The translations under genes were made by a program, and so were the position numbers. Below the pieces are notes generated by a model that ran no database searches, was not told where the DNA came from, and saw nothing but the letters and a program-made list of their open reading frames with translations. A stretch of DNA of 64,000 nucleotides from Microbacterium aurum (lineage in GTDB: Bacteria > Actinomycetota > Actinomycetes > Actinomycetales > Microbacteriaceae), in NCBI RefSeq assembly GCF_016907815.1, contig NZ_JAFBCQ010000001.1, positions 2,728,001 to 2,792,000 on the forward strand, in the 5' to 3' direction. Positions 8,386 to 18,643 of this stretch are shown piece by piece. How positions within the stretch are numbered: position 1 is the first letter of the stretch; the number at the start of each line of letters is the position of its first letter.

Positions 8386-8432
8386 TCCGGTCGGGATGAC
8401 AGGATTTGAACCTGCGACCCCTTGACCCCCAG
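8386..8432. repeat. attL core, 47-bp copy of the tRNA-Pro 3' half
   Basis: Identical over 47 bp to 18597-18643. It includes the T-arm and anticodon-loop part of tRNA-Pro but diverges (AGAGAG instead of AGTCAAG) after the anticodon region. It is therefore a partial tRNA copy and not a gene. Confidence 0.93.
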
Positions 8433-8468
8433 AGAGCGCCCCGCCGTGACACGTAGTGACATCGCGTG

Positions 8469-8500
8469 CCGGGGAGTAGTCGAGAGTTGGCTCTCCCCGG
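8469..8500. other. Strong nested hairpin beside attL
   Basis: CCGGGGAG (8469-8476) pairs with CTCCCCGG (8493-8500). Inside it GAGAG (8482-8486) can pair with CTCTC (8491-8495), an alternative fold. It lies in the non-coding left end of the element, 36 bp from the att core. It could be a terminator or a protein-binding structure; no T-run follows. Confidence 0.45.
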
Positions 8501-8550
8501 TGCCGATGCCCTCCCCCATGACAACCCGTGACAGGCAGTGATCGGCAGTG

Positions 8551-8572
8551 TGCACACACAGGTGCACACACA
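8551..8572. repeat. Paired TGCACACACA repeats, left att arm
   Basis: Two direct copies of TGCACACACA at 8551-8560 and 8563-8572. The same 10-mer is paired at 18511-18531 near attR. In the excised circle they would flank the att core, as integrase arm-type sites do. Confidence 0.6.
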
Positions 8573-8626
8573 AAAGGGCCGTTGCCCTCCCTAACGTTGC
8601 CGCCCCGAATGCTTCCGAGAGGACAC

Positions 8627-8908
8627 ATGATGCTGACGTTCGACGCCGCGCTGCGGATCGCTGCCGGGCACTTCGGCGAGCCGTTCGTTCGTGACGGCTG
8701 GGAGGACGACGGCGTCTTCCTCGTGACGCCGCAGCGCGTGCTCGACGACGAGAGCCGCGGGCTCGTCATGGCGGGCGGCGCGTGGATCACCGTCGACCGT
8801 GCGACGGGCGAGATCGAGACATGGCCGCATCTCGACTACCTCGATCGCGTGCAGCGGATGCGAGCAGTCGCCCGGATCAGCCCGCTTGTTCCCACTCGAT
8901 CGTCGTGA
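8627..8908 (+). CDS. Small protein resembling YrhB/Imm35-type immunity proteins
   Basis: A 93-residue protein. The ATG at 8627 is chosen because GAGAGG lies at ribosome-site distance; frames open further upstream run into the hairpin region. The sequence LTFDAALRIAAGHFGEPFVR, GVFLVTPQRVLDDE and GGAWITVDRATGEIETWPHL resembles small YrhB/Imm35 domains, often polymorphic-toxin immunity proteins. This is a pattern call only. It is convergent with hicA and their 3' ends overlap by 32 bp, so transcription of one could dampen the other. Confidence 0.65.
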   Translation: MMLTFDAALRIAAGHFGEPFVRDGWEDDGVFLVTPQRVLDDESRGLVMAGGAWITVDRATGEIETWPHLDYLDRVQRMRAVARISPLVPTRSS

Positions 8909-16181: not shown

Positions 16182-16417
16182 CGCGCACCCCCGGTGATCT
16201 GCTGAAGTTCGCGCAGCAGCGTCGCGTAGGCGATGAGTCGGTCGCCGGACGGCTTGAACGTGCCCGCCTCCCAGCGACAGATCGTCATGCGCGTCACGCC
16301 GAGTTCGCGGGCGATCGCGTCCTGGCTGACGCCTGCGGCCTCTCGGACTGCTCGGGCGAGCGCGGGCCGCGGAAGTTCGCGCCGGGCTCGTTCCTCGTCG
16401 ATCAGTGTCGTCGTCAT
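16178..16417 (-). CDS. XRE-family helix-turn-helix regulator
   Basis: A 79-residue protein beginning MTTTLIDEERARRELPRPAL. The XRE fold is plain: REAAGVSQDAIARELGVTRM then TICRWEAGTFKPSGDRLIAY. The start at 16417 is preferred because a TACGGT -10 box (complement of 16424-16429) ends 6 nt upstream, giving a leaderless mRNA. It is divergent from the 16584 gene and int, and so is the likely repressor that holds the element in its integrated state. Confidence 0.85.
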   Translation of the reverse strand: MTTTLIDEERARRELPRPALARAVREAAGVSQDAIARELGVTRMTICRWEAGTFKPSGDRLIAYATLLRELQQITGGAR

Positions 16418-16583
16418 GGCTTCACCGTAGCCACTTCTGCAACATGTGTGCACGTCTTTGCCGTCTCGACTTCGGTGCACGCTCGTGAGACACCCGCACC
16501 GCTGGATCCACGCCGATCTACGCATTACGAATGTCTCGCGCACGCATGTCGCATTATTTGTTACGAGCATGTAGCATCGAGCC
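16418..16583. promoter_or_regulatory. Divergent control region of the element
   Basis: Leftward, TACGGT (complement of 16424-16429) ends 6 nt before the XRE start. Rightward, TAGCAT (16572-16577) ends 6 nt before the ATG at 16584. An imperfect palindrome TGCAACATGTGTGCA (16438-16452) lies just behind the leftward -10 box. A GTCTCGCGCAC copy of the iteron core sits at 16533-16543. The region probably acts as a lysogeny-type switch. Confidence 0.55.
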
Positions 16584-17291
16584 ATGAGCGACGATCACCG
16601 TAAGCGCGAGCCGCGACCGCTGACGCCCGACGAAGAACGGCAACTTGCCGAGCGACAGCGTCGCCGCGAGGCAGCCCTCGCCGCCGATCCGCGCCCCGAG
16701 CCGATCCCCGGCCCGCGCACGCAGCACTCACGGTGGGACATCGACACCGAGACGACGGCGCCCGGCCTCGACGGCTGGATTCGCATCATCGACACCGCGC
16801 GCAAGATCGCGCCGTTATTCGTACGCCTCGGCGAAGACGACAGCGGGCGCCTCATTGTGGTCGGCTTGCACATCGACGGCGACATCGAACTGACAGCCCG
16901 CGCGATGCGCGAGATCAGTCTGCCCGAGATCGTGAAGACGATCGCGTGGCGGGCGACGGGTTCGCCGCCGCCGCAGTCGGTCGGCGACGTCTCCCCCATC
17001 GGCCTCGCGGTGTTCGAAGGCGTCGCAATGGAGATCGAGCACACGGTCGCGAGCGCAGCGCCCGCCGAGACGAAGCGCGGACGCCCAGGGCCGACCGATG
17101 ACCAACTTCACCGCGTCGTCGACGCGTACCGCCGCCACGCCCGCCAGACGCGCAGCGCGATCGCCGCCACCATGCGGGAAGTCAACCTCAGCCGTGCGAG
17201 CGTGCAGCGACATCTCGATCTCGCTCACGAACGCGGGCTGTTCCCCGAAGGGCGCCAAGGCGCCCAGCACACAAGAAAGGACGACAGATGA
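16584..17291 (+). CDS. Hypothetical protein with C-terminal helix-turn-helix-like region
   Basis: A 235-residue protein. The N-terminus is charged (MSDDHRKREPRPLTPDEERQ), the centre mixed (GWIRIIDTARKIAPLFVRLG, LHIDGDIELTARAMREISLP), and the end resembles a resolvase-type helix-turn-helix (RHARQTRSAIAATMREVNLS then RASVQRHLDLAHERGLF). Its stop overlaps the integrase start (ATGA), so it is co-translated with int and may modulate integration or transcription. No family is named. Confidence 0.65.
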   Translation: MSDDHRKREPRPLTPDEERQLAERQRRREAALAADPRPEPIPGPRTQHSRWDIDTETTAPGLDGWIRIIDTARKIAPLFVRLGEDDSGRLIVVGLHIDGDIELTARAMREISLPEIVKTIAWRATGSPPPQSVGDVSPIGLAVFEGVAMEIEHTVASAAPAETKRGRPGPTDDQLHRVVDAYRRHARQTRSAIAATMREVNLSRASVQRHLDLAHERGLFPEGRQGAQHTRKDDR

Positions 17292-18583
17292 TCTATCGCA
17301 GATGCTCGTGCAGGCGACCGGGTTCGAGAACCCAGTACGCCGTGCTGCCCGAGAAGCCGACCGACAAACAGGCCGCGAACACGTGCCCGCGGCTGCTCAG
17401 CGACCCGAAACACGGCAAGTGGGGCTACTGCCTCGCGCGCGGCACCGACGCGTCAGGCAAGCGCCTACAGACCCGCGTCGCCGGGTTCGACACGAAGCGG
17501 GCGGCGCAGTCCGCGCTCGCGAAGGCACGCGCCGAGCACGATCGCGGCGAGTTCGTCGAGACAAGTCGCGTGAAGTTCGGGCAGTGGCTCGACGAATGGC
17601 TCGACGGGCGCGAGCAGCGCGGCGACATCAAGCGCTCGACGCTCGACAACTACCGCCGATACGTCGACGCCGACATCAAGCCGAGCGCGCTCGGCAGGCT
17701 GCGGCTGACCGACATCAAGCGGGCGGACGTGCGGCGCTTCATCGACGCGCTGATCGCGGACGGGCGCGGCGCGACGACCGTGCGCCGCATCGTCGCCGTC
17801 GTGCAGGGTGCGCTCACCGCTGCCCTGCGAGACGACATGATCGCGGCAAACCCCGCCCGCGGCGTGCGGCTGCCCGTCGTCGACGCGCACGAGTTCGAGC
17901 CGTGGTCGCCCGTCCAAGTCGGGGCGTTCCTCGACCGGGCTGCGCAGCACCGTCTCGGCGCGCTGTTCGAGATCGCCGTGCTGACCGGGCTGCGGCGTGC
18001 CGAACTACTCGGGCTGCGATGGGGCGACGTCGACCTCGCGCGACGCGAACTGACCGTGCGGACGACGCGCGTGCAGACACGCAGCGCCGTCATCGAGAAC
18101 TCGCCGAAGACGAGCGCCGGGCGTCGGGTCGTGCAACTCGACGACGCGGCAGTCGGCGCGCTCGTCGCATGGCAGATCGCGCAGGAAGCCGACCGGGTGA
18201 ACTGCGGCACGCTGTGGGAGGGCGACGGGCACGTCTTCACGTACGAGAACGGGACGCCGCTGCGGCCCCAGTACGTGACGCGACTATTCGAGACGCTGCG
18301 CAGCGAGATCGGGCTGCCCGACATGACGCTGCACGGGCTGCGGCACATGCACGCGTCGCTGCTGCTCGCGAGCGGCACCGACATCGCGCTCGTGTCGAAG
18401 CGCCTCGGTCACTCGTCGATCTCGATCACGAGCGACATCTACACGCACCTGATCGGCGACGCCGGTCGACGTGCAGCGGAGGGTGCTTCGGCGCTCATTC
18501 CGCGAGCAAGTGCACACACACTGCACACACAGCCGACCGGGGCGGGCATGACAAAAGCCCCGGAACCCGCAAGAACTGCGTGA
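17288..18583 (+). CDS. int: Tyrosine site-specific recombinase (element integrase)
   Basis: A 431-residue protein. The N-terminal arm-binding part starts with a Cys/Arg-rich stretch (MIYRRCSCRRPGSRTQYAVL), followed by a SAM-like core-binding domain (FGQWLDEWLDGREQRGDIKR). In the catalytic domain the first Arg is in LTGLRRAELLGLRWGDVDL, then LHGLRHMHASLLLASGTDIA, LGHSSISITSDIYTHL with the nucleophilic Tyr. It ends 13 bp before attR, the normal position for an element integrated in a tRNA gene. It probably acts with the AlpA/Xis-like protein and the TGCACACACA arm sites. Confidence 0.95.
   Translation: MIYRRCSCRRPGSRTQYAVLPEKPTDKQAANTCPRLLSDPKHGKWGYCLARGTDASGKRLQTRVAGFDTKRAAQSALAKARAEHDRGEFVETSRVKFGQWLDEWLDGREQRGDIKRSTLDNYRRYVDADIKPSALGRLRLTDIKRADVRRFIDALIADGRGATTVRRIVAVVQGALTAALRDDMIAANPARGVRLPVVDAHEFEPWSPVQVGAFLDRAAQHRLGALFEIAVLTGLRRAELLGLRWGDVDLARRELTVRTTRVQTRSAVIENSPKTSAGRRVVQLDDAAVGALVAWQIAQEADRVNCGTLWEGDGHVFTYENGTPLRPQYVTRLFETLRSEIGLPDMTLHGLRHMHASLLLASGTDIALVSKRLGHSSISITSDIYTHLIGDAGRRAAEGASALIPRASAHTLHTQPTGAGMTKAPEPARTA
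18511..18531. repeat. Paired TGCACACACA repeats, right att arm
   Basis: Copies at 18511-18520 and 18522-18531, within the 3' end of int and in the same orientation as the pair at 8551-8572. Candidate integrase or excisionase arm sites. Confidence 0.58.
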
Positions 18584-18595
18584 TTCCGGGGCTTT
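18554..18595. terminator. Element-borne bidirectional terminator at attR
   Basis: AAAGCCCCGGAA (18554-18565) pairs with TTCCGGGGCTTT (18584-18595). Read leftwards it ends in TTTTGTC, suiting tRNA-Pro termination; rightwards it ends int transcription. The left arm lies in the int coding sequence. Its stem resembles the original terminator at 8353-8382, so the element resupplies what its insertion displaced. Confidence 0.72.
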
Positions 18596-18596
18596 C

Positions 18597-18643
18597 TCCG
18601 GTCGGGATGACAGGATTTGAACCTGCGACCCCTTGACCCCCAG
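18597..18643. repeat. attR core, within tRNA-Pro
   Basis: Matches 8386-8432 over all 47 bp. It covers the 3' half of the intact tRNA-Pro gene, so integration left the tRNA functional. Confidence 0.93.

Follow-up and report, generated by a model that had tools for sequence, protein, structure and literature searches.

A candidate PICI-like phage satellite in a tRNA-Pro gene of Microbacterium aurum and its relatives in the genus

Introduction

Pac-type phage-inducible chromosomal islands (PICIs), of which the Staphylococcus aureus pathogenicity islands (SaPIs) are the type, are described in PMC6092414 as elements typically, though not obligatorily, of about 15 kb, with an integrase gene at one end beside a co-oriented regulator-like gene, a divergent regulator operon, an excisionase/AlpA-type gene, a replication initiator, a small terminase subunit (TerS) of their own and accessory genes at the far end, and without capsid or lysis genes. 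Here we describe an element of about 10.2-10.3 kb in Microbacterium aurum, found in a stretch of 64,000 nucleotides (hereafter the window; assembly GCF_016907815.1, contig NZ_JAFBCQ010000001.1, positions 2,728,001 to 2,792,000) of a chromosome that is a single contig of 3.41 Mb. With a probability of about 0.84, we read it as a PICI-like satellite that exploits Appavirus-type phages by redirecting packaging through its own TerS.

Several other satellites bear on the comparison. In Vibrio cholerae, the PICI-like elements (PLEs) carry a tape-measure protein (TMP) that was shown experimentally in chimeric tails (PMC12987554, 2026); in the account given there the PLE tmp gene comes with tac, and putative tmp genes are listed in other satellites including some capsid-forming PICIs (cf-PICIs). 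PLEs are also described as shrinking the capsids of their helpers (PMC11389934), while cf-PICIs are described as carrying capsid, portal and terminase genes (PMC10690885). The phage-inducible chromosomal minimalist islands (PICMIs) of the Vibrionaceae are presented in PMC10803314 as very small elements with an integrase, an AlpA and a replication gene, without capsid remodelling genes and without terS, located beside fis, with virulent helpers in whose particles they are packed as concatemers. Mulch and Flayer of Streptomyces are satellites of actinomycete phages that encode capsid and packaging genes of their own (PMC10690885).

For phage satellites of Microbacterium our literature search found only PMC10690885, and for Appavirus nothing, most subscription journals and preprints lying outside the search. 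On actinomycete satellites it returned only the capsid-encoding ones of Streptomyces and references to PICIs predicted in Actinomycetota.

Results and Discussion

An element bounded by attachment repeats in tRNA-Pro(GGG)

The element is framed by an exact 47-bp direct repeat whose two copies lie 10,211 bp apart (Table 1). The right copy overlaps the 3' half of tRNA-Pro(GGG), the sole tRNA of the window, which ARAGORN finds intact, and the exact match together with its location in a tRNA exceeds chance. The sequence-only reading made of this locus before our analysis had named the repeats, the intact tRNA-Pro and an integrase gene next to attR, and all three were confirmed. Genes of the window's right flank adjoin tRNA-Pro(GGG) in 8/8 relative loci inspected (in L251 with another gene between); because these loci were chosen by their match to that flank, the result supports the right boundary and is not an independent test of it. 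Within the element, some 118 bp from the left attachment (att) site and some 66 bp from the right one, there are paired TGCACACACA repeats, and six of the seven GTGCACAC occurrences of the window fall within the element, a placement that integrase arm sites would give. The paired TGCACACACA repeats are probably such arm sites, both patterns having been spotted post hoc and without a shuffle comparison.

At the right end, orfR and then a tyrosine integrase gene are read from the plus strand, whereas the minus strand carries an operon-like run of an XRE regulator, an AlpA-type gene, a winged-helix initiator, the small open reading frame (ORF) orf109, a zinc-binding gene, TerS and c219, the two units meeting at 16584. 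Past c219 lies mostly cargo without assigned function, together with a HicBA-like pair. The sequence-only reading had placed divergent XRE and AlpA-type regulators here; the genes stand (HTH_3 and HTH_17), but they share the minus strand, and it is the orfR-int unit that diverges from them. Its winged-helix initiator, small-terminase-like gene and HicBA pair hold as well, HicA falling just under the Pfam cut-off, while the zinc/HNH-like gene is recognisable by eye but split between two frames. Family scans and phage-gene queries of the element showed no large terminase (TerL), portal, capsid, tail, lysis or transfer gene, in agreement with what had been claimed.

The small terminase subunit and its neighbour c219

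Gene 1 of Microbacterium Appavirus-type phages, annotated as terminase small subunit in 7 of 10 records, shares 47-51% identity with the TerS of the window. The window TerS also matches phrog_645 (E 7e-25), a family that PHROGs labels 'RNase E'; one record gives the same name to Appa gene 1. The label seems wrong, since most of the related phage records say terminase small subunit. A TerS profile found no match by sequence among solved structures (best E 0.5). The structure model (mean predicted local distance difference test score, pLDDT, 73.5) has a helix-turn-helix (HTH) at 16-56 and helices at 61-87 and 102-118, and in a structure comparison viral TerS models rank first. The protein combines phage TerS homology, an N-terminal HTH and, in the model, a helical oligomerisation region, as a small terminase subunit would. 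A scan of viral contigs with TerS gave 80 loci; an alignment scan of genome contigs gave no match for TerS and three loci for c219.

The neighbouring protein c219 has a confident, all-helical structure model, with no recognisable fold and no Pfam family. Of the structure searches proposed earlier, that for TerS led to viral TerS models and that for c219 to no clear fold. Neither the 50,697 phage records nor the 72,556 plasmid records searched contain a match to c219; a protein search found further homologues in Agromyces and in a Salinibacterium metagenome-assembled genome. Since c219 adjoins terS or shares its short operon in most of the family, we propose a role in packaging; judged by its gene company, c219 most likely redirects packaging or capsids or interferes with them. 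Close homologues of the window proteins exist elsewhere, with 94% identity for TerS, 92% for c219 and 91% for a 245-aa cargo gene, and may lie in different elements.

A family of compact elements at nine tRNA types

The TerS alignment matches 28 of 366 Microbacterium genomes (this genome included) and c219 matches 35 (this genome and both lineages described below included), 17 genomes being in both lists. Forty relative loci, a subset of all matches, were taken: 20 from the TerS matches (17 of the 28 genus genomes and 3 of 8 family genomes) and 20 from the c219 matches. In 22 of the 40, an exact tRNA-anchored repeat of 27-68 bp surrounds terS and/or c219. We analysed 21 of these elements (type A), excluding L195, which has a tRNA repeat and a partial c219, and retaining L136 despite poor gene calls; outside the bounded count stand L133, L134, L141, L143 and L145 (TerS match, without c219) and L144 (terS and c219, without tRNA repeat). 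Genes of the relatives were called with a codon-usage predictor, so starts are approximate and small genes were possibly missed, and their core-labelled proteins were named by iterated profiles, few being scanned against family libraries.

The 21 elements span 4,805-12,461 bp (median 6,693) and occupy 9 tRNA types. An int gene is present in 20 of them, an alpA-type gene in 19, terS in 18, c219 in 20 (in L146 as a 303-aa protein based on a weak profile match, E 2e-5), terS together with c219 in 17, orf109 in 13, rep in 8 and the zinc gene in 6. The smallest, L191, has int, alpA, zn, rep, terS, orf109 and c219 by gene calls. The gene order int/alpA/(rep)/orf109/terS/c219 recurs at the 9 tRNA types, which answers the earlier suggestion to look for it in related genomes. 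With no matching paper found, the family may be undescribed.

This recurrence bears on whether the element is the remnant of a deleted prophage, in which int, regulators, initiator and TerS were left after the structural genes were lost. Such a history would suit the phage relatives of the TerS, initiator, AlpA-type and integrase genes and the decayed genes of the window copy, and around one TerS match, L133, the locus does resemble a prophage, having TerL and portal genes but no c219. However, the same compact set with att repeats is found at 9 tRNA types, and therefore a single decayed prophage is no explanation; c219, beside terS in most of the family, is absent from the phage records. Queries for TerL, portal, major capsid, scaffold, major tail, chaperone and lysin gave no match at E 0.01 in the 21 elements and the window (capsid, portal and TerL queries were drawn from Phonegingi and Goodman), so that apart from a lone TMP in 4/21 relatives the leftover head, tail and lysis genes of a prophage were not found. 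We consider a prophage remnant very unlikely.

Actinomycete integrative elements, too, combine a tRNA-integrated int with XRE/AlpA regulators and a replication initiator. An integrative mobilizable element, or one like the actinomycete integrative and conjugative elements (AICEs), might move by conjugation with its TerS incidental, and three c219 relatives have no recognised TerS. Yet no FtsK/SpoIIIE-type transfer gene, relaxase or type IV secretion family was seen among scanned window proteins or among the 66 non-core (cargo) proteins of the 21 relatives: the Pfam scan of the latter (22 families) had no FtsK, relaxase, terminase or capsid family, and among the PHROGs matches listed (25 of 86 families) there was no FtsK, relaxase, head or packaging family. 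Phage-type TerS in 18/21 and phage TMP in 4/21 also stand against conjugation, which we regard as the most improbable of origins. The one PHROGs family labelled 'endolysin', phrog_971, matched four members, including the two tape-measure proteins that were scanned singly. The Pfam families of the relatives comprise tape-measure proteins, regulators and cargo types including an NgoMIV restriction enzyme, C5 methylases and HIRAN. With neither FtsK-type genes nor a structural module found in the 21 bounded relatives, the sequence-only reading of the locus as a phage satellite of Microbacteriaceae gains support.

Lone tape-measure genes and candidate helper phages

Four of the 21 elements, L127, L135, L138 and L182, carry a lone phage tape-measure gene (Table 1). 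In the whole phage collection, the L127 TMP is best matched by Phonegingi, with 85.9% identity over the full 753 aa, and Phonegingi is also the best match of the L127 TerS (60%); in L135 and L138, TerS and TMP are both best matched by DelaGarza, Lesiram and Gingerbug. TerS and TMP thus have the same best phage group in 3/3 comparable elements (L127, L135 and L138), the fourth carrier, L182, having no family TerS. When phage groups were assigned by comparison with six phage TerS and six phage TMP, TerS was closest to the Appavirus type (45-60%) in the window, L127-L132 and L144, and to Lesiram in L135, L138, L139, L140, L142, L180, L183, L191 and L194, as did the partial TerS of L136; L137 and L146 gave weak matches (27-39%).

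No integrase is annotated in Appa or Phonegingi, and for this reason the helper is presumed virulent. The candidate helpers were isolated on a single laboratory strain, Microbacterium foliorum NRRL B-24224. The TerL of Phonegingi matches 23 of the 366 genus genomes, two of these matches being c219 loci of the second lineage. The records of Phonegingi, Appa, Pickles13, Lesiram and Bush (5/5 checked) start exactly at the terS ATG, and gene 1 of Goodman is annotated from base 1. A record that starts at terS is the usual notation for a circularly permuted genome, and we infer headful packaging. With the 5/5 records starting at the terS ATG, a comparison of phage ends for cos sites was dropped; no pac site was found.

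TerS and TMP could also be decoys that spoil phage assembly, the locus then being a defence island rather than a traveller. On its own, with no further tail genes, a TMP could interfere with the tails of the helper, restriction-modification genes are present in relatives, and a satellite factor acting on tail assembly is described in PMC12987554. The integrase, the excisionase-type gene, the arm-like sites and the intact att sites nevertheless favour mobility, and the TMP of L127 has its full length and shares 86% identity with its phage counterpart, which leaves a purely defensive role highly improbable.

A missing tape-measure segment in the window copy

L127 is the closest relative of the window element among the loci taken. 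Window positions 11897-11589 (minus strand) align with L127 12017-12325 at 72% DNA identity, and 11545-11413 with L127 14755-14887 at 78%; between these blocks the window has 43 bp and L127 has 2,429 bp holding the entire tape-measure gene. The genes flanking the missing segment are broken on both sides in the window. On one side, ORF 11376-11756 is a fusion or remnant rather than an intact gene: its 5' part resembles L127 12158-12328, upstream of the L127 tape-measure gene, and its 3' part the gene directly downstream. No TMP remnant was detected in the window element at E < 0.1. In our reading the window lineage has probably lost a tail module; alternatively, the module may have been gained in L127. 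TMP is absent in 17/21 relatives and is thus not required for the layout.

A variant of the satellite reading, compatible with its first part, takes the family as real and the window copy as a dead, immobile relic. The split zinc gene, the fusion ORF, the missing TMP segment and a genome without a match to helper-type TerL all fit such a fate. On the other hand, the frames of int, alpA, rep, terS and c219 are open, the att sites and tRNA are kept, TMP is dispensable for the recurring layout, and near homologues of its proteins exist elsewhere; on balance we find a dead relic rather unlikely, though a reading to be taken seriously. The frame split in the zinc gene (14231-14679) may be decay or a sequencing error.

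A second c219 lineage beside tad pilus genes

Nine more c219 loci (type B; G435, G599, G626, G331, G441, G423, G327, G383 and G600, within L178-L193 and L225-L233), extended to about 36-38 kb, apparently belong to a larger element beside tadA-, tadB- and tadC-like genes; the tad genes were tested as type II secretion families in L181 and recognised by protein clusters in the others. A Prim-Pol cluster (gene tested in L181) and a large serine integrase cluster (tested in G599 only, phrog_95, E 2e-97) each occur in 8/9. A TMP gene of 599-619 aa is present in five, closest to Goodman among the six phages, and in the whole collection the G441 protein is closest to PermaG/Goodman-type phages. Two loci have TerL instead of TMP, and in two c219 is followed immediately by a small HTH gene and TerL. 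This arrangement of a TerL gene beside c219 and the small HTH gene is seen at L188 7526-8893 and L189 7465-8829, where Phonegingi homology revealed no other structural genes. The small HTH protein, which has no phage match, might at a guess be a second small terminase, 'TerS2'. A 5-kb contig of G624 (L187) holds a 619-aa tape-measure gene at 626-4398 near c219. The second lineage has c219 and TMP in common with the tRNA-borne one.

We tentatively entertain, at somewhat less than even odds, a wider reading in which the terS-c219 pair would define an actinomycete satellite group with two unrelated integration modes, by tyrosine integrase at tRNAs or by serine integrase in the tad pilus locus. 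Both ends of the virion would be reprogrammed, packaging through the element's own TerS with c219, a protein of a new family, and the tail through a TMP captured several times from the TerS-matched phage group, and the window would be a member with a deleted tail module.

Weighing the satellite reading

Several observations weigh against a TerS-redirecting satellite of Appavirus-type phages. c219 was not found in the viral contig collection by the two patterns used, and one homologue, P0071, is named as plasmid-borne, though the plasmid collection holds no match. TerS is not universal, since L177 (the next nearest by c219, 64%), L182 and L192 have c219 without a recognised TerS; conversely, L133, L134, L141 and L145 have TerS matches without nearby c219. 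L135 and L138 are kin (89% identity in TMP, 81% in c219 and 55% in TerS), and therefore the concordance of TerS and TMP is nearer two independent cases than three. The Phonegingi TerL has no match in the window's own genome, no primase was seen in the window element, and its split zinc gene and the broken ORFs by the missing TMP segment suggest that this copy may be partly decayed. Finally, the sizes of the 21 elements show no grouping around a constant fraction of a helper genome, which gives no support to small-capsid remodelling.

Should the satellite reading be right, the tyrosine integrase would keep the resting element in tRNA-Pro(GGG), with orfR or the XRE protein as repressor. Upon infection by a helper siphophage of the Appavirus kind, the XRE/AlpA operon would be expressed, AlpA and Int would excise the element and the winged-helix initiator would replicate it. 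The element's TerS would then bring the large terminase of the helper to the satellite's DNA, and this DNA would be packed in helper particles, probably as headful concatemers, c219 most likely acting as the redirection or interference factor proposed above, and HicBA and the other genes being cargo. In relatives whose TMP matches the same phage group as their TerS, tails would probably be built on the satellite's own ruler; the window copy would have lost its TMP or never had one.

Comparison with described satellites

The element shares with pac-type PICIs an integrase with a specific att site, a terS homologue and far-end accessory genes, in the absence of capsid and lysis genes. Its opposed orfR-int and XRE-AlpA units have the layout of the PICI regulator pair, with orfR, whose HTH match is weak, as putative repressor, and the AlpA-type gene and the winged-helix initiator are candidates for the excision function and for the replication module, which in PICIs has a primase, an initiator or both. 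Unlike PICIs, it has an actinomycete host, the c219 hallmark and no visible primase, some members carry TMP, and the candidate helpers, with no annotated integrase, are presumed virulent. The 10.3 kb of the window element and the 4.8-12.5 kb of its relatives also fall short of the typical PICI size. Since the size feature is not shared, and the functional features of PICIs lie beyond sequence analysis, we call the element a PICI-like satellite rather than a member of the PICI family.

Like PLEs, the family has a satellite-coded TMP (4/21 in type A and 5/9 in type B) and a presumed virulent helper. PLEs, compared by description only, differ in that their tmp comes with tac, whereas the chaperone query was empty in the 21 type A elements, and in shrinking helper capsids, of which the elements here give no sign. 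The very small size, the int, AlpA and replication genes and the lack of capsid remodelling genes recall PICMIs, but the present elements encode TerS and sit in tRNA genes. With cf-PICIs, predicted examples of which exist in Actinomycetota, some members have a tmp gene in common; however, no capsid, portal or terminase gene of that kind was found in the window element and the 21 type A elements, and TerL is present in 2/9 type B loci. Mulch and Flayer resemble the family in belonging to actinomycete phages and differ by their own capsid and packaging genes.

The integration site and other features of the window

The stretch 8339-8432, which ends with the 47 bp of attL, shows 83% identity to the element's right end, and the left flank (5805-8385) appears to be what is left of an older element. 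In the ORF at 5805-6899, what looks by eye like the start of an aminotransferase is fused to the C-terminal domain of a tyrosine recombinase (PF00589). The left flank also holds a DUF2510 gene, and its 244-aa gene has a homologue in L145 (61%). For PICIs, att sites that prophages never use are given as a feature. Other islands occupy tRNA-Pro(GGG) in L249 (3311-17140), L250 (2558-7149) and L251 (5134-10108), with the att core repeated; c219 was not found in these three. The tRNA-Pro(GGG) gene looks like an insertion hot spot. ORF 33357-34289, a weak int match, was rejected as an integrase, being by eye a XerD-like chromosomal gene.

Table 1. Coordinates of the element's features in the window and of the lone tape-measure genes in relatives.
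Feature	Position	Strand	Evidence or remark
attL, left copy of 47-bp repeat	8386..8432	.	Exact repeat
Left paired TGCACACACA repeats, putative arm sites	8550..8572	.	Function predicted
Immunity-protein-like ORF, cargo	8627..8908	+	phrog_3585, E 2e-4; homologues in L137, L177
HicA-like toxin gene, cargo	8877..9131	-	PF07927, E 1.3e-5, 25.6 bits against Pfam cut-off of 27; phrog_353
HicB/UPF0150-like antitoxin gene, cargo	9110..9448	-	PF21748, E 3e-10; start approximate
Small ORF, cargo	9495..9761	-	Coding score only
Coiled-coil-like ORF, hydrophobic start (by eye), cargo	9837..10358	+	Weak spanin/LmuB matches; 65% homologue in L137
248-aa ORF, hydrophobic stretch (by eye), cargo	10371..11117	-	No family matched
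Remnant/fusion ORF	11376..11756	-	Both parts similar to L127 sequence around its TMP gene
Scar, 43 bp against 2,429 bp with whole tape-measure gene in L127	11546..11588	.	DNA alignment
54-aa ORF; L127 counterpart is the start of a single 138-aa ORF	11832..11996	-	
245-aa protein, cargo	12224..12961	+	11 homologues in protein search; no family matched
c219, all-helical hallmark protein adjoining terS	13066..13725	-	No match in phage records
terS, small terminase subunit	13722..14234	-	47-51% identity to Appavirus-type gene 1
Zinc-binding gene (CxxC/HNH-like, by eye)	14231..14679	-	Two frames, split near 14512; one frame in six relatives
orf109, small conserved ORF of replication-packaging operon	14670..14951	-	Present in 13/21 relatives
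rep, winged-helix replication initiator	15053..15919	-	PF13730 (HTH_36), E 3e-12; phrog_270, E 3e-13
AlpA/excisionase-like HTH_17 protein	15972..16181	-	PF12728, E 9e-10; phrog_66; homologues in relatives
XRE-family regulator, 79 aa; open frame extends to 16585	16178..16417	-	PF01381 (HTH_3), E 6e-10; 65% homologue in L183
orfR, co-oriented with int, repressor candidate	16584..17291	+	HTH, E 0.02, below cut-off; 46% homologue at same place in L183
int, tyrosine integrase	17288..18583	+	PF00589, E 5e-25; phrog_1, E 6e-80
Right paired TGCACACACA repeats, putative arm sites	18511..18531	.	Function predicted
attR, right copy of 47-bp repeat, in tRNA-Pro 3' half	18597..18643	.	Exact repeat
tRNA-Pro(GGG), intact integration site	18600..18675	-	ARAGORN
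Lone TMP gene, full length, L127	12482-14743		No other tail genes seen
Lone TMP gene, full length, L135	5598-7754		No other tail genes seen
Lone TMP gene, full length, L138	5794-7947		No other tail genes seen
Lone TMP gene, full length, L182	11294-13543		No other tail genes seen

Conclusions

Satellites are well documented in a few bacterial groups, and the elements described here would add a family of small genomes in Microbacterium with named candidate helpers. The concordance of TerS and TMP predicts which phage mobilises which element. The lone TMP echoes the chimeric tails of PLEs, so that changes made by satellites to phage tails may be testable in another host group, and c219, conserved, absent from phage records and without a recognised fold, is a clear target.

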